Origin: a virus
Strand: one strand, 5' to 3'
Virus record (IMG/VR): IMGVR_UViG_3300037584_004752
Span: 1-41,852 of that record
Length of the DNA stretch: 41,852 bases
Shown: positions 20,910 to 40,892 of the stretch, piece by piece
Position numbering within the stretch: position 1 is the stretch's first letter
How the letters are laid out: every line of letters starts with the position of its first letter
Notes under the pieces: generated by a model
Seen by the model: the letters and a program-made list of their open reading frames with translations, nothing else
What the model was told of the DNA's origin: nothing
Databases searched by the model: none
Position numbers and translations under genes: made by a program

Positions 20910-21785
20910 TTACTTAGCTGATATCAACTCATCGTGGAACTTGCCTTGGTACTGATGTTCTCCCACATGAACTATGGCATCATTAATGTATGCATAACAT
21001 TTACCACCCATGTCTCTCCAAAGCTTACAAAAAGCAAAATCTTCCCCATTGTAAGTCTTTTCTTTTGGATCGTGTAAGGTATCAAAAAAGTTCCACATAT
21101 TTGGTTTATTCACATATTTACCATTGATAACTGTCTTTTGTACTATTTCTTTGTCAGGATATTTTTTAATCATTTTTTCTATGACTTCTCTTTTAATAAG
21201 CATACATCCTGTTGGTGAATCAGTTACCTCCATAACACCCTTATTAACCTTTATATTATCAGGATCAGGCACTTTCATAGGGTAGGTATGTAGGGCTCTT
21301 CTAATATCATCAGGTGATTTTATTAAACCTAGTTGCATTTTATTAAAAGCTTTTTCCCACATTAAAGTTTTTAAAGGGTATGGAACGGATATAATATCTT
21401 TATCAGCTTTCAACATGGTAAATATAGACTTACCTTGGAAATAAATATCGGAATCAATAAACAATAAATGTGTTGCTTTTGATTCTAATAAACCAGCTAC
21501 TGATAAATTTCTTCCTTGAGTCACTAAAGATGATTTTATTAAATGAAAAGATACTTTTAATTTTTTCTTAAAACATTCTTGTTGAAACTCTATTAATGCT
21601 TGTGTGTAATGTATAGAAACATCACTATGAACAGGTGTTGCAACAAAAACTTCAAAATTTTTATATTGATCTTTATCTTCTTTCCACAAAGGTTCTATTG
21701 CCTTTTCATAATCAGATTGAGTTTCTATGTTTACCTCTTGTAATGTTTGGTAAGTATCTTCGTTTATATATTTACTGTTTGACAC
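20910..21785 (-). CDS. GT-A-fold glycosyltransferase
   Basis: Predicted 291 residues. The start is a GTG at 21785 with AAAGGAG six bases upstream, overlapping the previous gene by 14 bases. Features: FVATPVHSDVS (about 48-58), SSLVTQGRN (nucleotide-sugar region), ATHLLFIDSDIYF with the DxD metal motif (about 111-116), TGCMLIKREV, and the C-terminal GEDFAFCKLWRDMG with VHVGEH. It would transfer a sugar from a nucleotide donor. The acceptor is unknown. It forms a unit with the GT-B enzyme and the DUF6445-type oxygenase upstream, inside the virion module. Confidence 0.82.
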   Translation of the reverse strand: MSNSKYINEDTYQTLQEVNIETQSDYEKAIEPLWKEDKDQYKNFEVFVATPVHSDVSIHYTQALIEFQQECFKKKLKVSFHLIKSSLVTQGRNLSVAGLLESKATHLLFIDSDIYFQGKSIFTMLKADKDIISVPYPLKTLMWEKAFNKMQLGLIKSPDDIRRALHTYPMKVPDPDNIKVNKGVMEVTDSPTGCMLIKREVIEKMIKKYPDKEIVQKTVINGKYVNKPNMWNFFDTLHDPKEKTYNGEDFAFCKLWRDMGGKCYAYINDAIVHVGEHQYQGKFHDELISAK

Positions 21786-22701
21786 GTAAAGCTCCTTTCA
21801 AAAAGTTTTCCCATTCCATAGCTTTTTTATCCCAACTATAAAATTTTTTATAATATTTTTGTTGTTCTTCTAAATGATTTTGCATCGTATCTGTATGTAA
21901 ATATTGAGCAGAAATATCTATTGCTCCTGCTATGCTTGCAGATAATAATTCTAAATCTTTTGTGTAATTTACATATACAGGCCATTCTGCACAAGTTTCT
22001 GGAAGTGCTCCAAAGTTAGTTGTAATAACATGAAGCCCTGCAGCTAAAGCTTCTAAAGCTGAAGCACAAAACGTTTCTTCAAATATTGATGGATATACAA
22101 ATAAATCATAATCTGTAATGTGGTCTAATAAGTATTCGTTAGGTTTGTAACCTATATAATTTACATTTGGTAACTTTTTTGCTTGATTAAAAAGTGCTTC
22201 TGTATCTTTATTTGCTTTATCAGCAAATTCCTTACCATAGACATCATTTGAACTATAAACATCTAAAGTAATATTTTTATTTTGTAAAAGTTGCATAGCT
22301 AAAAGCAACACATTTAAACCTCTCCAAGGAGTGCAATGATGCATAATTCTAATAGGTTCTCCCTTTTTATAAATTTTTCTTTTTGGAAAATGATGTGCAC
22401 CATTTTTTATGACCATTGATTTATCTTCAGGTATTTGAAAAAAATATCTAAATTTTTCATAACACCAATGTGAGTTAAAAACATACCAATCATATTCATT
22501 GTGTCGGTCTTTATTTCTAAAAAAACTTTGTAGATTAGGTTGATCCCAAGAGTTTTTTTGCCAAAGTATATTTATCTTACTGGGATCCAGTGGCACTTTT
22601 CCTGGAATAGATGTACATATTTGAAACTTATTTAATAAGTCTTTTGATACATACTTTTCAAGCAACTCTTGTTGTAATTCTGTTGCACCTCTAGGTTTCA
22701 T
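21772..22701 (-). CDS. GT-B-fold glycosyltransferase (GT4-like)
   Basis: About 309 residues. The ATG at 22701, with GAAAGG ten bases upstream, is preferred over a TTG at 22719. The C-terminal domain carries the GT4 hallmarks: RIMHHCTPWRGLNVLLLAM (sugar-nucleotide domain start), LPNVNYIGY, DLFVYPSIFEETFCASALEA with the Ex7E motif, and GLHVITTNFGALPET. It would retain or invert a sugar from NDP-sugar. It overlaps the oxygenase gene before it by 11 bases and the GT-A gene after it by 14, so the three are co-translated. The acceptor is unknown. Confidence 0.88.
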   Translation of the reverse strand: MKPRGATELQQELLEKYVSKDLLNKFQICTSIPGKVPLDPSKINILWQKNSWDQPNLQSFFRNKDRHNEYDWYVFNSHWCYEKFRYFFQIPEDKSMVIKNGAHHFPKRKIYKKGEPIRIMHHCTPWRGLNVLLLAMQLLQNKNITLDVYSSNDVYGKEFADKANKDTEALFNQAKKLPNVNYIGYKPNEYLLDHITDYDLFVYPSIFEETFCASALEALAAGLHVITTNFGALPETCAEWPVYVNYTKDLELLSASIAGAIDISAQYLHTDTMQNHLEEQQKYYKKFYSWDKKAMEWENFLKGALRVKQ

Positions 22702-23266
22702 TTTTTTTGTACCTTTCAAGTGTAGATTCTTTAGTAACTATAAAAAATGGTTGTACCCATCTTTCTTCTATATCTTGTTCTGTAGAAGGAGCGTGTGGCA
22801 CAAGGGGATTGTAAAAAACACATCTGTTAAATTTTGAACCTATTGTTGTCGTTGGTTCATAAGAGTCTTTAGTTATGAAAAAATGAGTGCCATCTTTAAA
22901 TGAATTTGAATTAAGATAGATTAAACCTGCAAAATCATAAAAGTCCTCATCAACATGGGGTCTTAGCTGTTTCCAACAAGAAGATTTTTCTAATTCCATT
23001 TTTTTAGTTTTTCGTAAAAAAGATTTTAATTGTAATACTTTTAAACCAGTTTGTCTTTCAAAAGTTTTTTTAAGTGTATTAATTAACTCATGATTTGATT
23101 CTAAGGTAAAAGGACTTGTTTGATAACAAGGATAAGCTTTAAATTTATCTGCGTTCATCCAAATATTATTAGGTTGATGACAACTTATAAAATGTTCGTT
23201 TATAAAATAAAATAAAACTGTGCCATATTCTTCTTTATTATAAAAGTTTTCAATTAATTGAAACAT
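22691..23266 (-). CDS. 2OG/Fe(II) oxygenase-like protein (DUF6445 type)
   Basis: Predicted 191 residues. The metal-binding HxD is in LRPHVDEDFYDFAGLIYLNS (about 101-120), the distal His in VFYNPLVPHAPSTE, and an Arg follows 11 residues later (EERWVQPFFIV). This fits 2-oxoglutarate/Fe(II) dioxygenases of the DUF6445-like group; the family name is from memory. It would hydroxylate an unknown substrate. It is coupled to two glycosyltransferase genes, which suggests that a hydroxyl it makes may be glycosylated. This is inference. Confidence 0.72.
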   Translation of the reverse strand: MFQLIENFYNKEEYGTVLFYFINEHFISCHQPNNIWMNADKFKAYPCYQTSPFTLESNHELINTLKKTFERQTGLKVLQLKSFLRKTKKMELEKSSCWKQLRPHVDEDFYDFAGLIYLNSNSFKDGTHFFITKDSYEPTTTIGSKFNRCVFYNPLVPHAPSTEQDIEERWVQPFFIVTKESTLERYKKNET

Positions 23267-23282
23267 GCTTTTATAAGTTTAG

Positions 23283-24121: not shown

Positions 24122-24643
24122 TTAATAACCTGAATGTAAGCCACCAATACCACTTGTATGTCTTGATTGTGTTGGAGCAGGTGCGGATGGTGCTTTTGTT
24201 GATGCTGGAATATTACCACCACCTCTTGCAATATCTTGTGCACTTGCTTCCATGTTCATAATTTTTGCTGGGATTGTTTTAATGTTTCCTTGAGAATCTT
24301 CTTTCATGTTTTTTTGTATTGCTTTCTGGTTTCTTTTGTTTGTTAAATATTCTGATATACCTAAAGCTCTGCCAGATAAAGCTGATACTGCAGCAAGAGG
24401 AGCAAACATACTTGAGCCCATTCCTAAAATAGATAATACTCCTGTAGCTTGTGCAGCATTCAAACCTATTTTTTTAGCCGCATAATCAATGGCTTTATTT
24501 TTTATTGCATTACCTGCAAGTTCTTTTAATGTAGGTAGTTCCATACCACCTCTTAACTCTTCTTGAGGTAATAATGGTTGAATGCCTTGAGGTTGCATAG
24601 TCTGATCACCAGGCACAAATTCATTTACTAGATCTGGTTCCAT
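24122..24643 (-). CDS. Virion-module protein with hydrophobic Ala/Gly segment, unknown function
   Basis: Predicted 173 residues. Residues about 55-95 are hydrophobic (AAQATGVLSILGMGSSMFAP, then LAAVSALSGRALGIS), able to cross or enter a membrane. The tail is Pro/Ser/Thr-rich. The start overlaps the stop of the tail-hub gene (TAATG). It may be a small ejection or tail protein; this is inferred from position and composition. Confidence 0.55.
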   Translation of the reverse strand: MEPDLVNEFVPGDQTMQPQGIQPLLPQEELRGGMELPTLKELAGNAIKNKAIDYAAKKIGLNAAQATGVLSILGMGSSMFAPLAAVSALSGRALGISEYLTNKRNQKAIQKNMKEDSQGNIKTIPAKIMNMEASAQDIARGGGNIPASTKAPSAPAPTQSRHTSGIGGLHSGY

Positions 24644-26802
24644 TATCCCCTCATTCCATCTAATTGAACATCTGCTCTAAAAGTTCCAAAACGCCAATTT
24701 TGTTCTGTACTAGTATTAGCAATTTTTAAACTAGCAAATCTAGCCCTCGCTCTAGTATCAACTTTCTTGGTCGATCCGGTGACCGTGAATGGTCCTAAGG
24801 GAGACGATGCTTCTGTATCTGCAGGAAAATCTCTAAGTAATATTGTTACTTGAGCATCCCCTTGTATAGTTTTAAAATCAGGTACAAATCTTCTCATACT
24901 CATAAAAAACTCAGCACTAGTTCCATCAGGATTTAAACTAAAATCTCCTGATTCTATAAAAGCTGGTATAGCAGTTTTATTACCAGATGTATCTACTTCA
25001 TCAACACCTTTTTCATGTTCAAAATATTTAGTTGATCCATTTATATTTGTAACACCTTGAACAGTTGGAAAACTACCTACACCTGTTGAGTTAAACTCTG
25101 TAGCGTAAGGATTTGAAAATAAATTTGCATCTACCCATGTTGTTCTTGATAAAGATCCAGTTACCCAAGTTCCATCTTGATAGTTGTAACATACATACCT
25201 ATCATTAAAGTCAGACGTAGCTTGAGGATAATACCAACATATTTCTTCATATAAATGATTTAAACCTACGTATACTGATTCACCAGCTGAAAAGTTTACT
25301 CCTAAATTGCTTCCGTTTTTTGTTGTAAAAACAAAATCTTCAACCGGACAAGGAAGTGATTTTACTGTACCATCAAAAACAAAAAAGCCACCAGATTCTC
25401 CCATCCAATAAACTGCACCATTAACATATTTCATAGCGTGTTGACCAATACACCCACAGTTAGAACCGACTTGTCTAATAGAAAAAGTAAAAGGTGGTCC
25501 TACAAACTGCATTACATACGCTGCATTATCTGTTAAAATTAAAGTATAATCTTTACCTTGAACAGCACCTACAATTTTTGTTCCTTGGTCTACTCTAAAT
25601 GTTCCCGCAGTGTTAACTGAAGTAGGTGTGTAATCACTTGTATTTTCTTGATCTGAAAATCTTATAAATAGTTTATCTTGTGTTGAGGTATCTCCTACCG
25701 TTGTTTCAGTGCCTAACATTATTAAATGTCTATCTCTATCTGAAACCAAAGACATAACAGATCTTGTAGGAGCGTTTGAAATTACTGTAGCTCTTGTATT
25801 GAGAGCATTTGCATTTGAATTTATTGGGTTCCAAGAAAAAGACTTACCATTTTTAATGGTAGCAATAAGTTGTTCTCCAAAATTATCTAAAGACCAAGAT
25901 CCAGGATCTATTGTTAATGTTGAAGACAATGATTCAATACCCCATCCTGTAAAGACTTCAACACCTGCACCACTTGAATGTGCGGATCTTGTTCCTGCTG
26001 CAGCTCTTGTTATTCCTGTAAGGTCGTTAGATGAAATTCCTGTGTATGAAATAAATTCTGCTCCAACTTTTATTGTTCCTGTGCTTGGAAAGTTTGTAGT
26101 AGATGCTAGCGTAACTGATGTTCCTGATCCACCAGTTCCAGCAGTGTCATCTAATAAGGCTCCGTTCAAAGTGCTAAATACTTGTTGGCCACCACCCCAA
26201 AGTCCTGTACCCCAACCAAATCCAAATGTTGAACTTAAAGCTCCTGGTTTTATATATGGAGTAACTGTTGCAGATCCAGATCCGTTGACCGTTGTCCCTG
26301 CTGCGCTAGCCATTGTAATAGTAAACTCATCACTACCTGGAACGGTTACTACTTGAAAAGGGTTAGTTGTAAAATTTGCTGCAGTATATCCTGCTCCTGT
26401 AGGAGGTGTTACAGAGCTAAATAAAAAAATATCTCCAGGCTCTAGACCATGAGCTGGTTTGTTAACAGTCACTGTTGCAGAGGTGTTAACAGTATCAAAA
26501 GTACAGCTTGTTAGGGCTGTGCCTAAAGGAGTAATATCAAAAAAAGCTCCTTCATAATAAATTATTAAAACTTTATTTGTTCCTATTGCAGCATATTTTC
26601 TACCGTCTAGATCAGCCCAAATAAATTGTTCTCTAGCCGCTCCTATAATAGTGCTTTCTAAAATTTGTTCCCATCCTCCAATTTTTTCTGGAAGACCGTA
26701 TCTAAATCTAACAAAGTCACCATCAGTCCACTGACCTTGTGCACCGGTTTGTGTAACTTGTTTGTTAAATCCAGGGGCTATATCTACTTTTGTTAATGGC
26801 AT
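24643..26802 (-). CDS. Tail hub/stabilisation protein (P22 gp10-like)
   Basis: Predicted 719 residues. The N-terminus MPLTKVDIAPGFNKQVTQTG, followed by WTDGDFVRFRYGLPEKIGGW, is the signature of the phage stabilisation/tail accessory family related to P22 gp10, widespread in marine podoviruses. The body is beta-rich with repeated short strands, as expected for a propeller-like tail hub. It would plug or extend the short tail below the adaptors. A TATAAT box five bases before the ATG and no Shine-Dalgarno suggest its own leaderless promoter after the modification genes. Two copies of the 12-base motif lie in it (24775, 26281). Confidence 0.8.
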   Translation of the reverse strand: MPLTKVDIAPGFNKQVTQTGAQGQWTDGDFVRFRYGLPEKIGGWEQILESTIIGAAREQFIWADLDGRKYAAIGTNKVLIIYYEGAFFDITPLGTALTSCTFDTVNTSATVTVNKPAHGLEPGDIFLFSSVTPPTGAGYTAANFTTNPFQVVTVPGSDEFTITMASAAGTTVNGSGSATVTPYIKPGALSSTFGFGWGTGLWGGGQQVFSTLNGALLDDTAGTGGSGTSVTLASTTNFPSTGTIKVGAEFISYTGISSNDLTGITRAAAGTRSAHSSGAGVEVFTGWGIESLSSTLTIDPGSWSLDNFGEQLIATIKNGKSFSWNPINSNANALNTRATVISNAPTRSVMSLVSDRDRHLIMLGTETTVGDTSTQDKLFIRFSDQENTSDYTPTSVNTAGTFRVDQGTKIVGAVQGKDYTLILTDNAAYVMQFVGPPFTFSIRQVGSNCGCIGQHAMKYVNGAVYWMGESGGFFVFDGTVKSLPCPVEDFVFTTKNGSNLGVNFSAGESVYVGLNHLYEEICWYYPQATSDFNDRYVCYNYQDGTWVTGSLSRTTWVDANLFSNPYATEFNSTGVGSFPTVQGVTNINGSTKYFEHEKGVDEVDTSGNKTAIPAFIESGDFSLNPDGTSAEFFMSMRRFVPDFKTIQGDAQVTILLRDFPADTEASSPLGPFTVTGSTKKVDTRARARFASLKIANTSTEQNWRFGTFRADVQLDGMRG
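24775..24786 (+). repeat. GC-rich 12-base motif, copy 6 (11/12)
   Basis: TCCGGTGACCGT inside the tail-hub gene, encoding TVTG on the minus strand. Confidence 0.5.
26281..26292 (+). repeat. GC-rich 12-base motif, copy 7 (10/12)
   Basis: TCCGTTGACCGT inside the tail-hub gene. It is the most divergent copy and could be chance. Confidence 0.35.
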
Positions 26803-26822: not shown

Positions 26823-27350
26823 TCATGGCCAATAAACATATTTGAACTCTGAATTATCAATCGTATATTGTAAAAAACTCTCATTTTCAACTATAGGAAA
26901 CCCTGCTAAATTGAAAGAAGTGTTAAGCAATATAGGCACACCAGTTTTTTCATAAAAATATTTTATTAAATCATAATAATTTGGATTATCTATTCTTTTT
27001 AAAGTTTGAACTCTACATGTATTATCTACGTGTACAATTGAAGACACTTCTTCCAGAGCTTTGTTTTTTGCTTTTACAGCAAAAGACATATAAGGACTTT
27101 CACTTAACGATCCTAAATCAAAATAATCATGTGCATGCTCAAGTAGAACTGTACCAGCTAAAGGTCTCCACCATTCTCTTTTTTTAAATTTATTAACAAT
27201 ATTTTTTGCGTCTAGGTTTCTTGGATCAAATAAAATAGATCTATTTCCTAAAGCTCTAGGTCCCCATTCACTTTCATTTTGATAAATCACTAAAGGTTTT
27301 TGTTGTAATAAAATTTCAACTGCTTCTTCTTTTTTTCTTATATATGCCAT
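26823..27350 (-). CDS. Carbamoyltransferase, C-terminal domain as a separate protein
   Basis: About 175 residues starting MAYIRKKEEAVEILLQQKPL at the ATG at 27350; the open frame extends upstream but that part is antisense-like and overlaps the oxygenase gene. The hallmark ESEWGPRALGNRSILFDPR (about 25-43) of the Carbam_trans_C domain is present, followed by REWWRPLAGTVL, SPYMSFAVK, VHVDNTCRVQTL and GVPILLNTSFN. The domain is complete. In TobZ, CmcH and NodU it is fused behind the Kae1-like domain. Here its partner is the gene at 27959-28882, with an oxygenase gene in between. The two proteins presumably assemble to make and transfer carbamoyl groups. Confidence 0.88.
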   Translation of the reverse strand: MAYIRKKEEAVEILLQQKPLVIYQNESEWGPRALGNRSILFDPRNLDAKNIVNKFKKREWWRPLAGTVLLEHAHDYFDLGSLSESPYMSFAVKAKNKALEEVSSIVHVDNTCRVQTLKRIDNPNYYDLIKYFYEKTGVPILLNTSFNLAGFPIVENESFLQYTIDNSEFKYVYWP

Positions 27351-27354: not shown

Positions 27355-27975
27355 TTATTGACCTTTTCTTTTACATAAAAAATTTCCAGACACTGACACC
27401 CTTTCCACATCACTTCTAAAAGGCATGACTGTATGATGTAAATTAGCTGGAAAAATATATAATTCATTTGTTTTAGGAAATCTTGTATGGGAACATATGT
27501 AATCACTATATCGGTCTTGGGTACCATATATAAACTGAATAGCACCTGGTTTACCTTCTCCTTCAGATACAAATTCTATAGCTTCTTTTTTTATTTCTTC
27601 AGGAACTTTTAGATATAGCACAAAAGAAATATCGCCTGAATGAGTATGAGGAGGATTAAATTCATTCTTTCTCATGTAGTTTATCCATAGTGAATTTAAT
27701 TTCATATGTTCTATTTTTTGTGAGTTTATTGTCCAAACATTTTCTTTCGTTTGAATATAGTTTAAAAAGTATTTACTTGTATGTTCTACAAACCAATCAA
27801 TATCTTGTTGTGTGTAAAAATTTTCTCTATCAATATGACCAGCAAGATTTTGTCTGTTATCATTTGATTTTACTTTATTACTTCTTTTTAAAAGTTCTTT
27901 TGTTATGTGGTCTTCTACCTCAAATTTGGCTACAAAAGGTCCCCAATATAAAAATTCATTATTTATAGATGTCAT
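27355..27975 (-). CDS. 2OG/Fe(II) oxygenase-like protein nested in split carbamoyltransferase locus
   Basis: Predicted 206 residues. The core is NPPHTHSGDISFVLYLKVP (about 107-125) with the His metal ligands, and FPANLHHTVMPFRSDVERVS (about 174-193) with the distal His and an Arg for 2-oxoglutarate, as in the 2OG-FeII_Oxy_5 type. The ATG lies inside the end of the carbamoyltransferase N-terminal gene (17-base overlap), and the stop lies five bases before the C-terminal gene's ATG. This tight packing implies that the three products are made together. The substrate is unknown. Confidence 0.78.
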   Translation of the reverse strand: MTSINNEFLYWGPFVAKFEVEDHITKELLKRSNKVKSNDNRQNLAGHIDRENFYTQQDIDWFVEHTSKYFLNYIQTKENVWTINSQKIEHMKLNSLWINYMRKNEFNPPHTHSGDISFVLYLKVPEEIKKEAIEFVSEGEGKPGAIQFIYGTQDRYSDYICSHTRFPKTNELYIFPANLHHTVMPFRSDVERVSVSGNFLCKRKGQ

Positions 27976-28882
27976 AGTATAACGCTGCTCCTATAGCTGT
28001 ACCCGCATCATGAGGTATTGGATCTACAAAAAAATTTAAATCAGGATATTTTTCTACATATTTAAAATTATTTGAACAATTAAGAAAATAACCACCAGAT
28101 AATAAAATATTATTGTTCATATGTTTTGCTTGATCTATTAACTCACATGTTTCTTTAAAAGTTTTTTCTTGTACTTCTTTTGCAATTTCTACTTTATTGT
28201 AATCTAAATCATATTTTTTTTTACAATAAGCGTAAGAAGAAAGTCCCATAACCTTACCCGCAGAGTGTCCACTATTATATCCTAAACTTTTACAAGCCTT
28301 ATCAAACTCAATTCCACCCACGGCAAAGTCTGAAAATTTATTTAAAAATCCTCCTAAATATTTAAATTTAACCATAGAATTTTGTTGGTCTCCAATTTCC
28401 ATATTACTCTTCCAGCGTGTGTGGTGTTTATAAATAGGATTTACATTTTTTTTGTTAATATAATAAACCGATTCTATTTCTTGAAAAGGTATATAAAAAT
28501 TACTAGCTCCACCACCATCTACAACTATTGCTAAAGCTTCTTCAAAATTTGAAAAATAAAAAGAACAGATTGCATGATATAAATGGTGTTCTCTTACATT
28601 AAAATAGTAGGGTGGATCACCCAATTGATTTTGTAAATTTTTAATCATTTGTTGATCATCTTCAAGAAAATAACCATTGTTGCTTCCATAAGAAGCATAA
28701 CAAACAAAATCTGGTTTAAAATTTATTTTTTGTAAAATAGATTGATATATTTTTGGGGCAGGAACTAAATCATAATCTTTGATTCCAACAAATCTTTCTT
28801 CATTATAAAAATCAATTATCTTACCATTTTGATAAACACATATGGAGGGGTGGTGAGAAATATTAATAGAAAGTATTTTCAT
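27959..28882 (-). CDS. Carbamoyltransferase, N-terminal Kae1-like domain as a separate protein
   Basis: Predicted 307 residues. Domain markers in order: KILSINISHHPSICVYQNGK (ATPase-fold start), EERFVGIK, EHHLYHA (98-104; H99 and H103 as the metal-binding His pair), VVDGGGAS (120-127), SAGKVMGLSSY, LLSGGYFLNCSNN and PIPHDAGTAIGAALYY at the C-terminus. This is a full N-terminal domain of the NodU/CmcH/TobZ carbamoyltransferase family, which forms carbamoyl-adenylate from carbamoyl phosphate and ATP. It stops exactly where the family's C-terminal domain would begin. That domain is encoded separately at 26823-27350. Confidence 0.9.
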   Translation of the reverse strand: MKILSINISHHPSICVYQNGKIIDFYNEERFVGIKDYDLVPAPKIYQSILQKINFKPDFVCYASYGSNNGYFLEDDQQMIKNLQNQLGDPPYYFNVREHHLYHAICSFYFSNFEEALAIVVDGGGASNFYIPFQEIESVYYINKKNVNPIYKHHTRWKSNMEIGDQQNSMVKFKYLGGFLNKFSDFAVGGIEFDKACKSLGYNSGHSAGKVMGLSSYAYCKKKYDLDYNKVEIAKEVQEKTFKETCELIDQAKHMNNNILLSGGYFLNCSNNFKYVEKYPDLNFFVDPIPHDAGTAIGAALYYDIYK

Positions 28883-28889: not shown

Positions 28890-29123
28890 TTATGATTTAT
28901 CTCTATCTATTCCTTCCATTTTAGAATCTTCATTACTAGGTGTTTTTTTTAATTTTTCATTGAAGTTTTGATTCCACTCTGCAACTATTTTGACAAGATT
29001 GTTTCCAAAGTGTCTAAGAGATTCAGCGGTTAAATAAATTTTACCTTTCTCTGTAATTATTTTTTTCTCTTCTTCAGAAAATATTATGTCACAAGAACCA
29101 TCTTTGTTTTGTTTAAAAATCAT
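28890..29123 (-). CDS. Small hypothetical protein
   Basis: Predicted 77 residues. It starts MIFKQNKDGSCDIIFSEEEK, then a helix (LTAESLRHFGNNLVKIVAEW) and a charged tail. The ATG overlaps the preceding oxygenase gene by 11 bases, and the stop is seven bases before the carbamoyltransferase start. It is part of the cargo cluster 30958-26823. No family is recognised. Confidence 0.6.
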   Translation of the reverse strand: MIFKQNKDGSCDIIFSEEEKKIITEKGKIYLTAESLRHFGNNLVKIVAEWNQNFNEKLKKTPSNEDSKMEGIDRDKS

Positions 29124-29670
29124 TTTCTAATTGTTCTCCCCAAAAAGTTCTTTTGTCTTTCCACCATTCTTTATTTTTACCATTTGCATCTACATAATGA
29201 AAGAAAACTTGTGCGTGCCAATCTCCTTGAAATTCTTTTCTATAGTGCTCAACATCACAACCTAGATAAATTACTGCATCACCATCTTTAAGTTCAATTT
29301 CTTTATCGCCTATAAAAATAGGCCAAGGTGTACTATCTGAACCAATCATAGCTGTAACACTTATTTCACAAGACTCACGATCTGTGTGTTTTTTTAAATC
29401 TGCAAATTTTGTATACATCCTCCAATAGCTGTATGTAGGATGTAATTTTAAATTAGTTTCTTTTTCCATAAGATCAAACTTAGTCAAAAGAAAAGATTCC
29501 ATTATTGGATCTGCATAATAGTTTGTGTCACAATTTTTATTTTGTCGAAGATCAAATGAGTTGATGTTTAATCTATGTTTAATAAATACATATTTGTTTA
29601 ATAGTTTTACTTCTTCTTTTGAAAAAAAGTTTTTTACAATTTTATACTTTGTATCTTTTATAGTGCCCAT
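29113..29670 (-). CDS. 2OG/Fe(II) oxygenase-like protein
   Basis: Predicted 185 residues. Metal-binding HxD is in LKKHTDRESCEISVTAMIGS (HTD, about residues 95-97). KDGDAVIYLGCDVEHYRKEF carries the distal His, followed by DWHAQVFFHYVDANGK, typical of a phage oxygenase group. The residue ten after the distal His is His rather than Arg/Lys, so 2-oxoglutarate binding may use a different residue or be lost. It overlaps the neighbouring oxygenase gene by 13 bases. Substrate unknown. Confidence 0.75.
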   Translation of the reverse strand: MGTIKDTKYKIVKNFFSKEEVKLLNKYVFIKHRLNINSFDLRQNKNCDTNYYADPIMESFLLTKFDLMEKETNLKLHPTYSYWRMYTKFADLKKHTDRESCEISVTAMIGSDSTPWPIFIGDKEIELKDGDAVIYLGCDVEHYRKEFQGDWHAQVFFHYVDANGKNKEWWKDKRTFWGEQLENDF

Positions 29671-30224
29671 GCAACCACCGAATATCTAGTTCCTTTTGTA
29701 ACTGGTTTTACGCAATGAGGGTACAAAAAATTACTTGGCCACATAATTAATCTAGCAACTTTATTTTCAATAGTAAATTCGTTTTCTCCTTGTGGTTCTC
29801 TAAAACAAAGATTACCGCCTTCATAATCATTATTTAAGATAAGTATGCAGCTTATGGTTCTTGGTATATCTTTAAAATGATCCCAATGATAATTATATTT
29901 ATCAGAAAGATTATATTTTAATATATCAATATTAAGTATTTGTGATGTTATTTTATCTTTAATTGAAGTATTAAATTCTTCATTATATAGATTTAAATGT
30001 CTTTGAATTATTGCAAACAAAAAATTATGCCAATGAACTATGGTCATAGAATTTGACAAAGGAGACAAAGGTGTAATTTTAACGCTTCTAATTTTTTTGT
30101 TTATTTTATTATTTGCAACTCCTCCCTCTTCAAAATCTAAAGTGTTTGCAACTTGTATTAAACTACCTATTGCCTTATAAGGCACTGCATTATCATATAT
30201 TTTTATATATTTTTTTAAGTCCAT
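29658..30224 (-). CDS. Prolyl-4-hydroxylase-type 2OG/Fe(II) oxygenase
   Basis: Predicted 188 residues with a classical P4H-like core: YNYHWDHFKDIPRTISCILI (HxD; about 111-130), NNDYEGGNLCFREPQGE, and MWPSNFLYPHCVKPVTKGTR, with the Arg exactly ten residues after the distal His for 2-oxoglutarate. All key residues are present, so it should be active. P4H-type enzymes hydroxylate proline in proteins, but phage members are not characterised well enough to fix the substrate. It overlaps both neighbours by 10-13 bases and lies two genes downstream of the tail-fibre pair. Confidence 0.85.
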   Translation of the reverse strand: MDLKKYIKIYDNAVPYKAIGSLIQVANTLDFEEGGVANNKINKKIRSVKITPLSPLSNSMTIVHWHNFLFAIIQRHLNLYNEEFNTSIKDKITSQILNIDILKYNLSDKYNYHWDHFKDIPRTISCILILNNDYEGGNLCFREPQGENEFTIENKVARLIMWPSNFLYPHCVKPVTKGTRYSVVAWAL

Positions 30225-30958
30225 TTTTTTTTAGACCAATATTTAGTTTTATAAATATGAAGACTTTGTAAAAAATAAAAAAGTTTTCCTTTTCTAAAAT
30301 ATTCGGTATTAGCACTTTTTATTTTCATTTTCCAAGGATCTCTTTTAAAGGGTATTATTTGAACGTAAGCTGTTCCTTTTTTTATTGTTGTATCGAGAGT
30401 TGGGTATTTATCGCCATTTATAATTATTGGAAAATTAACTTCATTAGGAAAGGTATCCGTATCAACTATACCTGGTATTATTGAAAACCTGTCATCATGA
30501 TTATTCATTGGAGGTAAAAATAAACAAGAATATCCTGGAGGTGTAACTATTTTCCAAGGGTTCATAATTTTTATAAAAGGTTGATTATTATTTTTACCAA
30601 CTAAAGGAGAGCCGCTAAGTTGTTGTGTAGCATGAAATTCAGTGTTACTACGTCCAAGATTTATAGACTTCGCACCTAATAAATTATCATCTATTTGTTT
30701 TGGTGTAAAAAAAGAATCAGGTTCACCTTTGTCATTTTTCACATTGTTTTTAAAAGTATAATCTTGTGGCACCCTTAGAAGATATCCAGTTGTAAGTGTA
30801 TCTAAAAAAGGCATGCAACCTTTTACTGTTTGCATTTCTCGATTATGTTCTAATTTTTTATACCATTCAGGTATATTCAATTTTATTGGTGTGGGGTAAT
30901 CTTCTTTTAAATCAACGTATTCTTCATGTGCAATGAATTCAATAATTTTATCATTCAT
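30215..30958 (-). CDS. Conserved marine-phage protein, possibly DUF6065-like
   Basis: Predicted 247 residues. TPIKLNIPEWYKKLEHNREM (about 23-42) and VKGCMPFLDTLTTGYLLRVP (about 45-64) recall the DUF6065-type family found in cyanophages; the name is from memory and uncertain. The second half, with PWKIVTPPGYSCLFLPPMNN and FPIIINGDKYPTLDTTIKKG, reads like a cupin or double-stranded beta-helix fold, which would relate it to the oxygenases beside it, but I see no complete HxD...H triad. It is the first gene of the cargo cluster ending at 26823. Confidence 0.6.
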   Translation of the reverse strand: MNDKIIEFIAHEEYVDLKEDYPTPIKLNIPEWYKKLEHNREMQTVKGCMPFLDTLTTGYLLRVPQDYTFKNNVKNDKGEPDSFFTPKQIDDNLLGAKSINLGRSNTEFHATQQLSGSPLVGKNNNQPFIKIMNPWKIVTPPGYSCLFLPPMNNHDDRFSIIPGIVDTDTFPNEVNFPIIINGDKYPTLDTTIKKGTAYVQIIPFKRDPWKMKIKSANTEYFRKGKLFYFLQSLHIYKTKYWSKKKWT

Positions 30959-30993: not shown

Positions 30994-31434
30994 CTATAAT
31001 AATTCTAATAAGTTAATTACTTCTTGTCCTTGATCATTTATCCATTTTTCTAAAGGTTCTGAAGCAGGAATAGAAGACACATCAAGAGAGTTTAAATAAT
31101 CTCTGTAATTTGTAACACTGCTTGCAAAAGGTTTACTTGAATTATTTTCAAGCCAACTATTTATACCTTCTAAAATATGATTTTTATCTTCATTATGTTC
31201 TATGTCATAACCATCATATGTTATGTCTTCATAAGTAACATTTGTTCCATCATAATTAACACTTTTTAAAGAAAGTCTCACTGCATCAAAATCAGATTGA
31301 GAAACTTCTACAATATCATAATCATCTTGACTCCAATCAGCATTATTATCTATATGATTTTGATCTTTTGCAATCTTAAAAAGTTTTCCGTATACAACAC
31401 TTGAATCTTTAGTTAAAATTAATTTTGCCATCAT
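30994..31434 (-). CDS. Acidic protein after the tail fibre, possible fibre chaperone or accessory
   Basis: Predicted 146 residues, acidic (many Asp, Asn and Ser), with IVEVSQSDFDAVRLSLKSVN, SWLENNSSKPFASSVTNYRD and a C-terminal helix. The start overlaps the fibre stop (TAATG), so it is translationally coupled to the fibre gene, the usual place for a fibre-assembly protein. No sequence family is recognised; the role is inferred only from position. Confidence 0.5.
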   Translation of the reverse strand: MMAKLILTKDSSVVYGKLFKIAKDQNHIDNNADWSQDDYDIVEVSQSDFDAVRLSLKSVNYDGTNVTYEDITYDGYDIEHNEDKNHILEGINSWLENNSSKPFASSVTNYRDYLNSLDVSSIPASEPLEKWINDQGQEVINLLELL

Positions 31435-32672
31435 TAAGCTCCTGTATTTTCAAAAACGTATATCGCACCGCCCCCACCTGTTTGACCAGTAGTAGAACCG
31501 GGGCTTCCACCCCCTCCGGGTTGACCAGCGTTGTTTATAACAAATCTAAAAGGTGAACTTATTGAAATTGCAGACGGGTTTCCACTCGTTCCTGTATTTC
31601 CACTTTGTCCAGGAACAGATCCTGGTTGTCCTCGGTTTGCACCGTTACCACCATTAAAATTAAAAACGTTTGCTAGAGAAGTAGCTCCACCTGCCGAACT
31701 GCTAGAAAATCTAGCACCTCCAGATCCTCCACTTCCAATAGTGAATGGTTGAGAGAAAGGATGAGTAAATGGGTGACCAATGTAACCGTAAAAACCGCTT
31801 CCGCCACCGCCCCCACTTGTAGTATCTGGACCGGATCCAGCTCCACCTCCACCTCCACCTGCAGCATATATTCCAAAAAAAGATCCATTTGCATTTGAAG
31901 TTAGAGTTCCGCTTGAGTTAGTAAAAGTTTTAGGTTCAAATCCTCCACCTCCTGCAGATCCTGATGAAGCAGCAGTAAGTCTTCCTTGAGCATCAACAGT
32001 AATTGAAGACGCTGTATAAGAGCCAGCTGTTACAGCAGTGTTTGCAAGTTGATCAGCACCAACAGCATCATCTGCTATTAAGGCAGTAGTAATTGCATCG
32101 TCAGCGATTGCTGCAGTAGTCACAGCATCATCAGCGATAGCAGCAGCTACAATGGCATCGTCAGCAATCTTGGCTGAAGTTACAGCATCGTCAGCAATTT
32201 TTGCAGTAGTCACTGCACTGTCAGCAATTTGTGCTGCAGCTACTGTACCACCTAAAGTGTCTAATGAAATTTCATTTAAGTTTGTTCCATCAGAATATGC
32301 TGCGTAAATTTTAGCAGCGTCTAAAGTAAATCCTGTTCCTGATGCAGTTTTAATTGTAAGGTTTGCAGGATTTGTTAAACCTGTTGCATCAAATATATAA
32401 AATTTTTCTATTGAATTTGGAATAGTACAAATTGTGCTTGCTGCAATCGTTGCAGTTGCAAATTTGATAACCATGTTTCTTGCATTTGATAATGCACCGT
32501 CTGACATTACAAGAGCAAGAGTACCACCACTTGATAATGTTACTTGTTCAAAACCAGCAATAGCTTGTTGAATTACATTTAAATTTGTATTTGTTTTATC
32601 ACCCCATGTACCAGCGTTCTCACCGGTTACCATTAGTTCTAGTTTTAAATCACTTGAATAACTTGATGCCAT
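31434..32672 (-). CDS. Tail fibre with decapeptide repeats and Gly-rich tip
   Basis: Predicted 412 residues; AAGGAG precedes the ATG. The N-terminal part (SDLKLELMVTGENAGTWGDK) is shared by many marine-phage fibres. Residues 149-208 are six decapeptide repeats of the form IADDAVTTAK, as in trimeric fibre shafts. From about 240 to the end the protein is dominated by glycine (AAGGGGGGAGSG, TSGGGGGSGF, GSGGSGGARF), with GxP-containing stretches (NRGQPGSVPGQSGNTGTSGN). This resembles the polyglycine-II tips of T-even gp38-type adhesins. It should recognise the host surface and would be a natural target for the nearby oxygenases. Confidence 0.82.
   Translation of the reverse strand: MASSYSSDLKLELMVTGENAGTWGDKTNTNLNVIQQAIAGFEQVTLSSGGTLALVMSDGALSNARNMVIKFATATIAASTICTIPNSIEKFYIFDATGLTNPANLTIKTASGTGFTLDAAKIYAAYSDGTNLNEISLDTLGGTVAAAQIADSAVTTAKIADDAVTSAKIADDAIVAAAIADDAVTTAAIADDAITTALIADDAVGADQLANTAVTAGSYTASSITVDAQGRLTAASSGSAGGGGFEPKTFTNSSGTLTSNANGSFFGIYAAGGGGGGAGSGPDTTSGGGGGSGFYGYIGHPFTHPFSQPFTIGSGGSGGARFSSSSAGGATSLANVFNFNGGNGANRGQPGSVPGQSGNTGTSGNPSAISISSPFRFVINNAGQPGGGGSPGSTTGQTGGGGAIYVFENTGA
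32049..32228 (-). repeat. Six 30-bp coding repeats in tail-fibre shaft
   Basis: Six tandem degenerate 30-bp units encode IAD[DS]A-type decapeptides (residues 149-208 of the fibre). Units differ mainly at the last four codons. Confidence 0.8.
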
Positions 32673-32708: not shown

Positions 32709-33677
32709 CTAAGCAGCCAAATCAACCACCGTCCATGTATTAGATACTCCTAAATCTATTTCAGCCCACGCTGTAATATTAGGACTTCCAACAGATCCTG
32801 TCAATTCTATGCCTGTAGGGATCACTACAGCCTCTCCTGTTGCACCCTCTTCCCCTAAAGATGAAGTAATAGAAAGCCCTGATACCCCTATAATTTGTCC
32901 TGGTATTTCCGCATGTTGTCCAAGTGTCATGGTTGCAGAAATTCCAGTCACTGATTCATTTGTGCTTTGTATTAAAGTAATACTTCCTTGTGTGAAAGAT
33001 GCTTGACTTCCTGTAACAGGAACTGGAGTTTTTAAACCACCTACCGTATTTCCTTGTGAAGATGTTATAGATATTCCAGAAACATCTACATTCGCATCTC
33101 CAGATAATGAACTAGAACCTATAGTAAAATCTAATTGATCTTCTGCAGCTAAAACGATTACATCTCCGTCAATTTGAAGTGAAAAACTACCTTGAGTAAA
33201 GCTAGCTTGAGATCCACTTACAGCAACAGTTACGTCTGTAAAAGCTGTTTCATTTCCAATAGATGATGTTAATGATTGTCCTGTAACTTGAATTGAAAAA
33301 TTATCACCCCAAGCAAACTCACCCCATTCACCTCTACCCCAACCTTCTCCTGTTAGAGTACTTTCATCTACAGTAGCAGCTCCTATACTTGATGATGTTG
33401 AAATTCCTGTAACAGGCACTCCTATACCAATCACGGTGCTTCCAACACCTATAGACATAGTAACTACGCCAGGATCTACTAATGCTGAAGTTCCACCGAC
33501 TGAAGCACCAATGCTTGATGATAATGATATTCCTGAAACACTTACATCAGCGTTTGCTGTGACTGATTCAGAACCAATTGATGATGTTAATGATATGCCA
33601 CTGACGGAAACTATTTCATCAGAAAGGTCGCCCCATTCAGATGCTCCCCATGTCTTTCGTCCCCATCCAGTAGCCAT
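32709..33677 (-). CDS. Repeat-rich tail/appendage protein
   Basis: Predicted 322 residues. Two tryptophan motifs of the form WGRxxWGxxxWGD occur near residues 5-17 and 113-126. Between and after them about ten copies of a VSGISLTSSIG-like unit recur (VSVSGISLTSSIG, VSVSGISLSSSIG, VTGISTSSSIG, VTGQSLTSSIG, VDVSGISITSS and others). The protein is beta-rich, acidic and poor in Lys and Cys, like a virion surface protein. It is placed between the head-proximal proteins and the fibre gene. No enzymatic domain is seen. The W-G-rich motif is familiar from marine phage tail proteins. Confidence 0.65.
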   Translation of the reverse strand: MATGWGRKTWGASEWGDLSDEIVSVSGISLTSSIGSESVTANADVSVSGISLSSSIGASVGGTSALVDPGVVTMSIGVGSTVIGIGVPVTGISTSSSIGAATVDESTLTGEGWGRGEWGEFAWGDNFSIQVTGQSLTSSIGNETAFTDVTVAVSGSQASFTQGSFSLQIDGDVIVLAAEDQLDFTIGSSSLSGDANVDVSGISITSSQGNTVGGLKTPVPVTGSQASFTQGSITLIQSTNESVTGISATMTLGQHAEIPGQIIGVSGLSITSSLGEEGATGEAVVIPTGIELTGSVGSPNITAWAEIDLGVSNTWTVVDLAA

Positions 33678-35947: not shown

Positions 35948-35997
35948 TATTATCCTTTTTACGGTTGTACAATTTCTTGGATTGTATCACTTTTTGA

Positions 35998-36129: not shown

Positions 36130-36134
36130 TTCTT

Positions 36135-36140: not shown

Positions 36141-36142
36141 CC

Positions 36143-36700
36143 TTAATTTTCTATAAGTTCAAACACTACATCTTTAGGGTCAAAATTAAAAGATATAATA
36201 GTTTTAGAATTATGTGACAAGTTTCTACCACCTCTATGAATATAATAAGCAGGAAAAGCAATCAAATCACCTTCGTTAGCATCAATAGAAATTACTTCTT
36301 TAGGGTTAGATGGATTCAAAATATCAGTCTTAGGATGTATTTCTTTGTTGAAATCTAAATAATAAACACCAGTAAAATTACTTCCGTGCGTATGCCACCC
36401 ATGTTTACCAGAATTGTGGTATTGTTGATACCAAATATTGTAAAGTGTAACGTCTGTAAAACCAATTTTGCAAACTAATTTTTTAAGTGTATTTTCTAAA
36501 TGTGGTTTAAAAATTTTAACCCATTTTCTATTAAAATTTGTTGAGTCATTCCAATCAAGCCTATGAATATTATCATTTATAGAATTGTTTTGAATAAAAA
36601 CATTATCAGCTTCAGATGAATTTATTATACTTAATATTTCTTTTTTTAAAATTAAATGTTCTGTGAAAGAACATTTAAGCATGGGAGTTTTTATTTCCAT
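36143..36700 (-). CDS. 2OG/Fe(II) oxygenase-like protein
   Basis: Predicted 185 residues. GKHGWHTHGSNFTGVYYLDF (about 117-136) supplies the HxH-type metal site, and GDLIAFPAYYIHRGGRNLSH (about 152-171) the distal His, followed by Lys for 2-oxoglutarate and IISFNFDP. This is the 2OG-FeII_Oxy_5-like pattern common in marine phages. Substrate unknown. It sits between endolysin and neck genes, an interruption of the virion module. Confidence 0.78.
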   Translation of the reverse strand: MEIKTPMLKCSFTEHLILKKEILSIINSSEADNVFIQNNSINDNIHRLDWNDSTNFNRKWVKIFKPHLENTLKKLVCKIGFTDVTLYNIWYQQYHNSGKHGWHTHGSNFTGVYYLDFNKEIHPKTDILNPSNPKEVISIDANEGDLIAFPAYYIHRGGRNLSHNSKTIISFNFDPKDVVFELIEN

Positions 36701-36707
36701 AAAAAGA

Positions 36708-37184: not shown

Positions 37185-37186
37185 TA

Positions 37187-37800: not shown

Positions 37801-37960
37801 CTGGTCCTCCACAAAGAGCTAAGAATACCAACATCATAATCAATGCACCAGTAAAGTAATAATTCATTTTTATCTCACTCATACGTTGGACAAGATTATC
37901 AACTATAAACCCTGCTCTGTCTAGTGCCTCAAAAAATTTATAAATCCATTTATCTATCAT
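37790..37960 (-). CDS. 56-residue single-span membrane protein, holin candidate
   Basis: The frame begins at the ATG at 37960, overlapping the preceding stop (ATGA). It ends 11 bases into the next gene. Residues about 1-30 are amphipathic (MIDKWIYKFFEALDRAGFIV), then one hydrophobic segment (YYFTGALIMMLVFLALC, 34-50). Size, one membrane span and position two genes upstream of the endolysin fit a small holin. It is an inference from context. Confidence 0.55.
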   Translation of the reverse strand: MIDKWIYKFFEALDRAGFIVDNLVQRMSEIKMNYYFTGALIMMLVFLALCGGPGVQ

Positions 37961-38664
37961 TCGTATGTTTCATCCTCGTCTCTTTCTTTTTCATAACCTT
38001 CTTGCAACATTTCACTTAACGTTTGTTCTTTTTTTTCCATTTCATAGAACATTTTATCGCTGTCCTCTGTAACCAATCCGTTATCTTCAGCATCCCAATA
38101 TGTAGTCTGAACTTTGTAATCTGGCCAGCTGTTATCAGTAGTATAACTGTTAATATGCCAAAGAATACGATTATTAGGCTGAGCTGCATAATTCCCGTTA
38201 GCAAGAGCCAATATATGCGCACACTTATGTTCTTGAGGTATTTCAGAATGTTCAACATCCAAAATATTAACGTCTGGATGACCCCAATCAACCGTAAATA
38301 AATATTCTCCATGAAGAAATTTTTTGTTTAAACCTAAGTATTTACCTTTTACACCAGCCAACCAATCAAACCGATGAACACTAGGCCAATAGCTAAAACA
38401 GTTCCACAATTCCAACTCGTGCGTCTGCATATCCGGCACATCGGCTCTATCATACGATTTTTGGAAAAACGCTGAGATAGGCAAACGCCAAAAGCATGCA
38501 CCATTGGGTAACATGATGTTAAACAAGATAGCACGCCCTGATATTGACGTGAGACCAAAGATAACACACTCTTCACTTTCTCCTTGATGTTCTTTAAGAT
38601 CATATAGATACTCCTTCCTTACCTTACAATAAATTGGTGGTATATTAGCATTTAAATAAGACAT
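37957..38664 (-). CDS. Conserved marine-phage protein, unknown function
   Basis: Predicted 235 residues. It starts MSYLNANIPPIYCKVRKEYL, contains FWRLPISAFFQKSYDRADVP and TVDWGHPDVNILDVEHSEIP, and ends in an acidic helix (TLSEMLQEGYEKERDEDETY). Trp and Asn richness gives it a distinct look, and I recall similar proteins in cyanophages without a function. No catalytic signature is clear. It is coupled to the 56-residue membrane protein (ATGA) and follows the basic protein gene directly. Confidence 0.65.
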   Translation of the reverse strand: MSYLNANIPPIYCKVRKEYLYDLKEHQGESEECVIFGLTSISGRAILFNIMLPNGACFWRLPISAFFQKSYDRADVPDMQTHELELWNCFSYWPSVHRFDWLAGVKGKYLGLNKKFLHGEYLFTVDWGHPDVNILDVEHSEIPQEHKCAHILALANGNYAAQPNNRILWHINSYTTDNSWPDYKVQTTYWDAEDNGLVTEDSDKMFYEMEKKEQTLSEMLQEGYEKERDEDETYE

Positions 38665-39357: not shown

Positions 39358-39358
39358 C

Positions 39359-39649: not shown

Positions 39650-39667
39650 AATTTTCTCCTATAGTTT

Positions 39668-39687
39668 GTGGCTCCCGAGGGAGCCAC
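39668..39687 (-). promoter_or_regulatory. Strong intergenic hairpin
   Basis: A perfect 8-bp G+C-rich stem (GTGGCTCC at 39668-39675 with GGAGCCAC at 39680-39687) and a four-base loop lie in the 48-base gap between two virion genes. No T-run follows on the minus strand, so it is more likely an mRNA stabiliser, processing site or attenuator than a terminator. Confidence 0.5.
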
Positions 39688-39697
39688 TAATTAATTA

Positions 39698-40252
39698 TTA
39701 CGCTGCAAATGCAAACGCACCAGTGACAGCTGCTGCTGCACCAGTGAATTCAGTTGCAATATGCCATGTACCTGTTTCATAACACATGAAAGCAATTTTT
39801 CCACCGGTTGACAAAACATTAGTAGCTGCATCAGCTGGAGTGAAAACTAATTGTGTTTCACCTGCTGCTGAAGTATCAAAAGTTACTTCATTTGCTGCTC
39901 TTGATTCAATTAAAGAACCAGTTGCCCAAACGTCAGATCCTGCTGCATTAAAAGTTAAAGTAGCAGTTCCGCCCGCTGTGTCTTTAGATTGAACGTAAAC
40001 TGCAATCGCACCTTTAGTTGCTGCAGGTAATGCTACAGCACATGCTGCTGCACCTGTGTAGTTAACAACTGCAATAATTCCATCAGCGATAGAAATATTT
40101 GCTGCTGTTGCTGTGTCAGCTAAAACTAAACCTGTAAGATCAGGCATACCTGAACTCATTCTTGTTGTAATTGCACCTGATGATGCATTTTTAGTAGCCA
40201 TTTGAAAGCCACCTTCAGAACGTACCGGTCCCGAAAAAGTAGTTGATGCCAT
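39698..40252 (-). CDS. Putative capsid decoration protein
   Basis: Predicted 184 residues; GGAGAAAATT precedes the ATG. It begins MASTTFSGPVRSEGGFQMAT and is Ala/Thr/Gly/Val-rich with regular beta-strand alternation and almost no Lys. Its place two genes after the major capsid gene and its composition fit a capsid cement or decoration protein. Such MASTTFSGPV-type proteins are familiar from marine phage virion modules. The function is inferred. Confidence 0.55.
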   Translation of the reverse strand: MASTTFSGPVRSEGGFQMATKNASSGAITTRMSSGMPDLTGLVLADTATAANISIADGIIAVVNYTGAAACAVALPAATKGAIAVYVQSKDTAGGTATLTFNAAGSDVWATGSLIESRAANEVTFDTSAAGETQLVFTPADAATNVLSTGGKIAFMCYETGTWHIATEFTGAAAAVTGAFAFAA

Positions 40253-40370
40253 AATTTTCTCCTTTGTATAGCGTTCATTATGTAGTCTCTATACCGTCTG
40301 CCTAGCCAGTCTACATAATAATTTATTTCTAGGTATTTTTATTCTATAGGAATGTCAGTCTCAAGTAAAG
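40253..40370. other. Intergenic gap with inverted repeat
   Basis: There is no gene in these 118 bases. ATTATGTAG at 40277-40285 pairs perfectly with CTACATAAT at 40311-40319 (9 bp, 25-base loop). It could be a terminator remnant, operator or mRNA structure before the decoration gene. No T-run follows on the minus strand. Confidence 0.45.
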
Positions 40371-40892
40371 CTACCATGATTTAACTTCTTTAATATTAAA
40401 ACTCATCCCAAATTTAGAAAAATCATCAGGGTTTTTTTCACAACCGTGTTGTAAAATAGAACTAAAAATTCCAAAAACCCCTGCTTCAGGTTTTATTTTT
40501 TCATGTATTTCTGGAAAATTAAGTGTTTGATTTGAACTATTTAAATAAATTACTCCAGACCAAAATGATTCTTTATGATCATGGTAAAGTGTTTTTTCTC
40601 TTGGTTTTACTTCAAAACCCCATGCCTCATGTAAACCATATTTAGGTAAATTATAATGTAAATCTAGATGATCTATAATTGGGTATAATAATTTTTGAAA
40701 ATTTTTATCTTCTTTAAAAAAACTAAAAGGTGTCATTAAAGATTTAATGTTTGTTTGATAATTCATATTATTATCTGAATCACATGCTTTTTTTATTTTC
40801 TCAATATAGTAATTACAATCTAGTTCTAATTTACCGGTAATAAAAAAATATTCTTTTGAAACTTTTCTATTAACATCTTTAGTGATGATCAT
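40371..40892 (-). CDS. 2OG/Fe(II) oxygenase-like protein next to capsid gene
   Basis: About 173 residues from the ATG at 40892 (a GTG at 40907 is an alternative; no clear ribosome site for either). KTLYHDHKESFWSGVIYLNS supplies the HxH metal site, and IFSSILQHGCEKNPDDFSKF the distal His and downstream Lys, as in 2OG-FeII_Oxy_5-like phage oxygenases. It lies directly after the capsid terminator and before the decoration gene. The substrate is unknown; its position suggests a virion protein. Confidence 0.75.
   Translation of the reverse strand: MIITKDVNRKVSKEYFFITGKLELDCNYYIEKIKKACDSDNNMNYQTNIKSLMTPFSFFKEDKNFQKLLYPIIDHLDLHYNLPKYGLHEAWGFEVKPREKTLYHDHKESFWSGVIYLNSSNQTLNFPEIHEKIKPEAGVFGIFSSILQHGCEKNPDDFSKFGMSFNIKEVKSW

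Follow-up and report, generated by a model that had tools for sequence, protein, structure and literature searches.

Six divergent Fe(II) oxygenase genes and a P10-P4-P3 cassette in a virus related to HTVC023P-type pelagiphages

The oxygenase genes, their iron site and the 'ferrochelatase' label

The linear IMG/VR virus record IMGVR_UViG_3300037584_004752 (41,852 bases, analysed over its whole length and hereafter called the window) carries on its minus strand six genes, P1 to P6, whose products belong to the superfamily of the 2-oxoglutarate (2OG)/Fe(II) oxygenases. A first-pass annotation had proposed these six open reading frames (ORFs), and all of them are present where it had placed them, except that the last extends further upstream, to a GTG at 40907, the proposed start at 40892 being an internal ATG. 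A further gene, P10, heads a cassette with P4 and P3 and encodes a non-oxygenase.

22691–23266, minus strand: oxygenase P1 (HxD, His104); PF13640 E 0.0017, below the cut-off; weak matches to phrog_274 and phrog_1644; converged superfamily profiles 4e-13 to 1e-20
27355–27975, minus strand: oxygenase P2 (HxH); PF13759 5.9e-15; phrog_81 2.1e-31; gene order
29113–29670, minus strand: oxygenase P3 (HxD); phrog_2954 7.7e-48 (public label 'ferrochelatase'); no Pfam match
29658–30224, minus strand: oxygenase P4 (HxD), prolyl-hydroxylase-like; PF13640 3.3e-15; phrog_61 9.2e-33
30215–30958, minus strand: P10, predicted dUTPase fold, DUF6065-like, non-oxygenase, first gene of the P10-P4-P3 cassette; AF2, Foldseek and VIA
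36143–36700, minus strand: oxygenase P5 (HxH); PF13759 7.1e-7; phrog_81 2.7e-30
40371–40907, minus strand: oxygenase P6 (HxH); PF13759 1.2e-8; phrog_81 1.4e-10

Iterated profile searches place all six proteins in one double-stranded-beta-helix superfamily, as the first-pass annotation had anticipated. In a test set of the window and 161 loci (2777 ORFs), searches started from P1, P3, P4 and P5 each converged on about 510 ORFs (counts not deduplicated, and with an oxygenase density that is biased in the loci fetched via P3); their union comprised 518 ORFs, 493 of them common to all four, and no window ORF of at least 70 amino acids beyond the six entered the converged set. Placement in Pfam was partial: P2, P4, P5 and P6 exceed the curated cut-off, whereas P1 stays below it and P3 has no match. 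PHROG profiles assign P2, P5 and P6 to phrog_81 and P4 to phrog_61, both labelled oxygenase. When narrow-family profiles were compared, P2, P4, P5 and P6 were linked pairwise with 93–98% probability and P1 was linked to P4 with 77% and to P3 with 71%, against about 6% at most for non-oxygenase controls. P3 was only weakly linked to most other oxygenases by these profiles, and a structure model of it was therefore made; a double-stranded beta-helix fold was predicted for P3, the other five being placed by sequence profile alone. The strong mutual divergence claimed for the six also holds, the best pair sharing 30% global identity and no BLASTP match being better than E 0.046. The six are confirmed as real, divergent members of the Fe(II) oxygenase superfamily in an HTVC023P-type marine phage, with Fe(II)/2OG turnover predicted from their sequences. 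For P1, the name 'DNA endonuclease V' attached to phrog_274 was rejected: the corresponding PF04493 matches none of five phage records but six of 14 controls, and phrog_274 itself matches the two controls that also match PF13640, plus E. coli. P1 also weakly matches phrog_1644, labelled 'minor coat protein'. A single-sequence search of the PDB with P2 returned no relative.

Across 433 relatives made non-redundant at 70% identity, 421 retain the first His of the iron site and 423 the distal one; the middle residue is Asp in 262, His in 146, Glu in 21 and another residue in four. P1, P3 and P4 have the HxD/E...H site; P2, P5 and P6 have HxH instead of two His and a carboxylate. Since 146 of the 433 relatives have HxH and the H/D/E state changes only eight times on the tree (FastTree, 165 divergent columns, long branches), HxH is a stable, deeply inherited class related to the 2OG-Fe(II) oxygenase superfamily. 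Decay as its cause is ruled out by the deep inheritance, the few changes and the retained position of the 2OG anchor, where this class has Arg in 76% and Lys in 14% (basic in 90%), with an Asn nearby in 91%; Arg is also the commonest residue there in HxD rows. On a speculative reading taken up below, the HxH members would depend on 2OG and bind iron through three histidines. P3 departs from the motifs described in the first-pass annotation: it keeps HxD...H but has no conserved Arg or Lys at the usual anchor place. Its invariant Arg84, Arg144, Gln154 and His158 are candidate anchor residues.

The AF2 model of P3 has a mean pLDDT of 95.1 and a pTM of 0.90. It matches 2OG-Fe(II) oxygenases and prolyl hydroxylases in Foldseek (probability 1.00, best E 2.0e-7), among them the viral enzyme vCPH and a prolyl hydroxylase of Pseudomonas with EF-Tu, and reaches a Z of about 15–16 in VIA; in the Foldseek and VIA lists, the 50 entries shown are proteins with an oxygenase fold. 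A profile search of the PDB with P3 found no relative. PHROG 2954, the family of P3, is called 'ferrochelatase' in databases and in two papers (PMC9599517, PMC11561400) whose available parts link their oxygenases to a 'ferrochelatase'. The ferrochelatase profile PF00762 matches none of 14 phage records, 13 of which carry phrog_2954; among the controls, PF00762 matches eight of 14 genomes and phrog_2954 none. Because the model matches the oxygenase fold and the two profiles never coincide, we consider the public name for PHROG 2954 very probably wrong. No paper flagging the label was found among the open-licence literature. If PHROG 2954 is an oxygenase family, the haem interpretation falls away. 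The name also bears on a 2024 time series, in whose available text phrog61, phrog2954 and phrog21866 are the three functions enriched in seasonal viruses (PMC11561400). All three are present in the window, as P4, P3 and a primase (8034–9605), respectively, so that two of the three seasonal markers would belong to one oxygenase cassette. As a separate observation, cyanophage ACG-2014f has a single 'ferrochelatase' ORF of about 362 amino acids at the P3 match (L269 7968–9056), and the two halves of phrog_3531 (362 positions) match P3 and P4; P3 and P4 are probably fused in that phage, to judge from these alignments.

Relatives and neighbouring genes

The following genes of the window adjoin the oxygenases or were used to place the record:

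20910–21785, minus strand: second glycosyltransferase-like gene, Anp1-like; PF03452 E 0.001, below the cut-off; phrog_1574 5.3e-35
21772–22719, minus strand: GT4-type glycosyltransferase; PF00534 1.8e-15; phrog_2170
24643–26802, minus strand: virion structural protein ('needle'), used to find relatives; phrog_3287 6.4e-85
26823–27350, minus strand: CarbC, C-terminal half of a carbamoyltransferase, ATG at 27350; phrog_1601 positions 352–521, 1.6e-62
27959–28882, minus strand: CarbN, N-terminal half of the carbamoyltransferase; PF02543 3.3e-10; phrog_1601 positions 1–319
31434–32672, minus strand: tail fibre with a glycine-rich end, candidate substrate; tail-fibre PHROGs
32709–33677, minus strand: fib322, repeat-rich, adjoins the tail fibre; order conserved
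40966–41850, minus strand: major capsid protein, runs off the record; phrog_371 1.4e-18

The needle gene product shares 59.9% amino acid identity with that of HTVC023P, 52.4% with HTVC027P and 48.7% with 023Pt_psg01, and the fibre, needle, glycosyltransferase pair and replication genes follow the order of the HTVC023P-type group. Because of the 49–60% identity in this one virion protein and the common order of the fibre, needle and glycosyltransferase genes, the window is assigned, from its sequence, to a record related to HTVC023P-type pelagiphages; by analogy, SAR11 would be the host. A search for phages nearly identical to window 1–25000 gave no match. P1 overlaps the start of the GT4 gene, P5 is flanked by a neck/tail gene and an M15 peptidase gene, and P6 adjoins the major capsid gene.

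Six oxygenase genes in about 20 kb, which the first-pass annotation had taken as a large share of the genome, is a high number but an ordinary one for this phage group, with three to eight per record across 13 records. Oxygenase sets in these viruses have been in print since Wittmers et al. 2022 (PMC9599517), whose available text describes eight non-orthologous 2OG-Fe(II) oxygenases in HTVC023P-type pelagiphages, near 'ferrochelatases'. From what is accessible of the other sources, the HTVC027P transcriptome (PMC12753301) names one oxygenase, gp73; the Phold paper (PMC12774648) notes PHROG 61 and phage proteins resembling human EGLN3; and a Baltic study (PMC9301287) notes a viral prolyl 4-hydroxylase whose use it calls cryptic. 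In our set, HTVC027P gp72–gp74 (L005 27093–28754) are three minus-strand genes, all of the oxygenase superfamily. To this literature the analysis adds, as its most useful points, an identity for P3, the cassette formed by P10, P4 and P3, a stable class with HxH, and a pairing with carbamoyltransferase that recurs among close relatives.

The oxygenases might be free-standing auxiliary metabolic enzymes acting on host small molecules, their location among virion genes reflecting permissiveness for insertion only. Oxygenase sets vary in number, order and strand among relatives, as in insertion hot spots, and the available parts of two papers present them as auxiliary metabolic genes (PMC9599517, PMC11561400). 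However, many loci preserve both the order and the position of the P10-P4-P3 block, and the published link does not hold where it concerns ferrochelatase; we regard this explanation as improbable.

Several observations on the window and other records stand apart. Eight oxygenase ORFs each, denser than in the window, lie in G018 (21,961 bases; 2744–8178) and G016 (19,535 bases; 11025–19535). In Pelagibacter phage Mosig (L265 9981–11217), the oxygenase cluster is followed immediately by genes annotated as heme oxygenase and phycocyanobilin:ferredoxin oxidoreductase. Window 37957–38664 (235 amino acids) bears the phrog_3704 label 'ferredoxin', has no Pfam match at 0.01 and hits the same profile set as ORFs annotated PurM in HTVC023P, HTVC027P and 023Pt_psg01; these conflicting labels may all be wrong. 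A PAPS-reductase-like gene (5468–6274; phrog_424, Pfam below cut-off) lies in the replication cluster.

The P10-P4-P3 cassette, the tail fibre and the carbamoyltransferase

P10 and P4 overlap by 10 bases and P4 and P3 by 13. In profile searches of the PDB, P4 matches EGLN1 (E 1e-4) and prolyl 3-hydroxylase 1 (P3H1; E 2e-4), both protein hydroxylases. An oxygenase lies directly upstream of P3 in 103 of 116 distinct cases, a P4-type one in 81, and 35 P10-P4-P3 runs occur among plus-strand P3 genes; in loci selected through carbamoyltransferase, an oxygenase stands next to P10 in all 24 cases. The AF2 model of P10 (pLDDT 92.3) finds 3t6y as its best Foldseek match (E 5.4e-4) and aligns in VIA with 2y8c (Z 10.3, 119 residues, rmsd 2.3). 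DUF6065 is matched by 22 of 38 P10 relatives and the dUTPase family PF00692 by one of 38 (E 0.001). On this model, P10 is predicted to be a dUTPase-fold protein. Hallmarks of dUTPases are the Asp of motif 1 and the Arg-Ser-Ser of motif 2. Both are absent from P10 when matched by eye, its conserved positions showing GYxL and PPLNN in their place, so that P10 shares the fold of dUTPases but has not kept these two catalytic motifs. A seventh oxygenase in P10 is ruled out by the absent profile link and the dUTPase fold. Relatives of P10 occur in 52 phage records, mostly haloarchaeal viruses, and also in many alphaproteobacteria; no open-licence paper was found for 'DUF6065'. Two neighbour clusters of the cellular P10 loci resemble, by eye, an ECF sigma factor and an anti-sigma protein. 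In a Maricaulis metagenome-assembled genome contig and an alphaproteobacterial single-cell contig (L272, L273), P10 lies beside several oxygenases, and these two look like phage sequence inside cellular assemblies.

The first-pass annotation had placed all six oxygenases beside virion rather than replication genes. In the five records holding both modules (window, HTVC023P, HTVC027P, 023Pt_psg01 and G001), none of the 24 oxygenase ORFs falls within the replication cluster; all are located among genes for head, neck, fibre and tail. This argues against a late modification of DNA or nucleotides, in which base hydroxylation would be followed by carbamoylation or glycosylation. TET-dependent carbamoylated cytosine is known in phage DNA. 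P3 homologues come after a DNA methyltransferase in P-SSM7 and S-CAM22, thymidylate synthase precedes a split carbamoyltransferase in S-SCSM1 and S-RIM44, and P10, with its predicted dUTPase fold, stands beside thymidylate synthase in HRTV-2. However, a search with the Tet_JBP profile PF12851 gave nothing in the window and, in 11 records, nothing above the cut-off, G016 showing a single weak match; the window ORFs that were scanned yielded no DNA methyltransferase, and P10 is without the metal and phosphate motifs of dUTPases. DNA as the target seems quite unlikely to us.

The gene upstream of the cassette encodes a tail fibre with 47 Gly in its last 167 residues. Of 66 distinct stretches from fibre to needle, 35 have a glycine-rich fibre, and 24 of these scored positive for P10, compared with one of the 31 that have no such fibre (Fisher 1.7e-8; P10 was scored only within 5 kb of the needle gene, and L087 counts as absent despite its P10). 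In the 43 stretches fetched without P3 or carbamoyltransferase, the figures are 13 of 18 and one of 25. HTVC023P has a separate glycine-rich protein (L004 26376–27302) that the fibre profile leaves unscored.

Both the N- and C-terminal domains of a NodU/TobZ-type carbamoyltransferase are present in the window, not on one chain but on two ORFs (phrog_1601 1–319 and 352–521): P2 sits between them, overlapping CarbN and ending 4 nt before the CarbC ATG. In the other listed loci, the window itself being L002, the enzyme is whole or in adjacent halves (e.g. L006, L007, L072), never around an oxygenase. When carbamoyltransferase genes were fetched in their own right, 31 of 35 in close relatives had an oxygenase as neighbour, compared with 83 of 297 other ORFs. 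The 44 adjacent oxygenases come from many branches, requiring 27 changes on the tree, 20 of them forced by well-supported branches; the pairing therefore arose repeatedly. The Anp1-like gene (phrog_1574) stays beside GT4 in relatives. Oxygenases, carbamoyltransferase and glycosyltransferases could together modify a surface glycan of the infected cell or build an activated sugar, for example to block superinfection or to shield the virion. Besides the two glycosyltransferase-like genes next to P1, this reading draws on P-SSM2, in which the carbamoyltransferase adjoins genes for a heptose kinase, a phosphoheptose isomerase and an epimerase and lies close to an oxygenase and to tail fibres, and on S-SCSM2R, in which epimerases and a GT10 enzyme stand beside it. 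In contrast, no sugar-nucleotide gene was found among the window ORFs scanned, the nearest solved relatives of P4 act on protein, and many loci have the P3-P4 pair but no carbamoyltransferase. We consider such a glycan role rather unlikely.

Proposed function and comparison with known systems

Our best guess is the hydroxylation of the tail fibre or another virion protein, with DNA or surface glycans as alternative targets. We tentatively propose, at somewhat less than even probability, that the cassette serves to hydroxylate a virion protein, most likely the fibre, the hydroxyls made by the other oxygenases being partly capped. In this hypothetical scheme, (i) the P10-P4-P3 cassette, coupled and downstream of the tail-fibre gene, would be the constant part; (ii) P4 and P3 would act on side chains of a virion protein, of which the glycine-rich end of the fibre, whose gene lies just upstream, is the most likely; (iii) P10 would serve as a trimeric partner or adaptor for P4 and P3; (iv) the remaining, exchangeable oxygenases would add further hydroxyl groups; and (v) the split carbamoyltransferase next to P2 and the two glycosyltransferases next to P1 might cap some of these further hydroxyls. 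A more specific version, in which P3 and P4, guided by P10, hydroxylate the glycine-rich end of a receptor-binding fibre that is then glycosylated or carbamoylated, with HxH as a three-His 2OG class, appears unlikely as a whole. The phage would thereby tune adhesion chemically through an exchangeable set of enzymes and not by mutation alone. The cultured phage HTVC023P carries P3, P4-like and P2-like genes, and since it has P3/P4-type genes, the question of the target is directly testable by mass spectrometry.

Several observations weigh against virion-protein hydroxylation by the cassette. The link between fibre and cassette is not significant once relatedness is considered: only about three independent tree pairs speak for it and none against (sign test p 0.25), and co-inheritance as one block therefore explains the association of glycine-rich fibre and P10 equally. 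Pelagibacter phage HTVC027P lives without P3 and P10; an oxygenase stands beside P10 in only two of 80 loci of cellular contigs, and two halovirus copies of P10 have no annotated oxygenase alongside. P3 lacks the usual anchor residue. The carbamoyltransferase pairing is weak in distant loci (beside an oxygenase in five of 25, against 24 of 245 other ORFs; p 0.16). In a survey of eight annotated cyano- or pelagimyophages, the P3 homologues of P-SSM7 and S-CAM22 sit between the DNA methyltransferase and the clamp-loader gp62, without an annotated fibre or adjacent oxygenase; that of ACG-2014f lies near nrdAB, S-RIM32 has oxygenases near its P3 homologue and no fibre label, and a labelled tail fibre occurs in the fetched stretch in four of the eight (P-RSM4, Mosig, S-PM2 and S-SM2). 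Since P3 occurs among replication genes in cyanophages, location in the virion module is a property of the phage group and not of the gene family. The late modification of virions proposed in the first-pass annotation is plausible, drawing on superfamily membership and position, but P3 homologues in replication clusters speak against it as a general rule; the early, middle and late clusters of HTVC027P are described as mosaic in the available text of its transcriptome study (PMC12753301).

The arrangement resembles several known systems. The sets of Wittmers et al. 2022, as far as the available parts show, share with the window several non-orthologous oxygenases close together and an adjoining gene named ferrochelatase. 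They differ in that the partner is treated there as a haem enzyme, whereas in the window this partner, P3, is predicted to be an oxygenase, and P10, the split carbamoyltransferase and the HxH class are without mention in those parts. With the prolyl hydroxylases (EGLN/PHD, bacterial P4H, viral vCPH), P3 has its predicted fold in common and P4 its sequence, although identity is about 8–17% over structure alignments and P3 is without their usual anchor residue. The uncharacterised proteins of known structure 2rg4 and 3bvc (TIGR02466/PF13759) show the HxH...H and Arg/Asn pattern of P2, P5 and P6. Some cyanophages (P-SSM7, S-CAM22) differ from the window in that P3 stands without an adjacent oxygenase. 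In the cyano- and pelagimyophages Mosig, P-RSM4, S-PM2 and S-SM2, in contrast, several oxygenases and a P3 homologue lie near tail fibre or neck genes, as in the window, even though these phages belong to an unrelated family with larger genomes and P10 is unnoted in their clusters.

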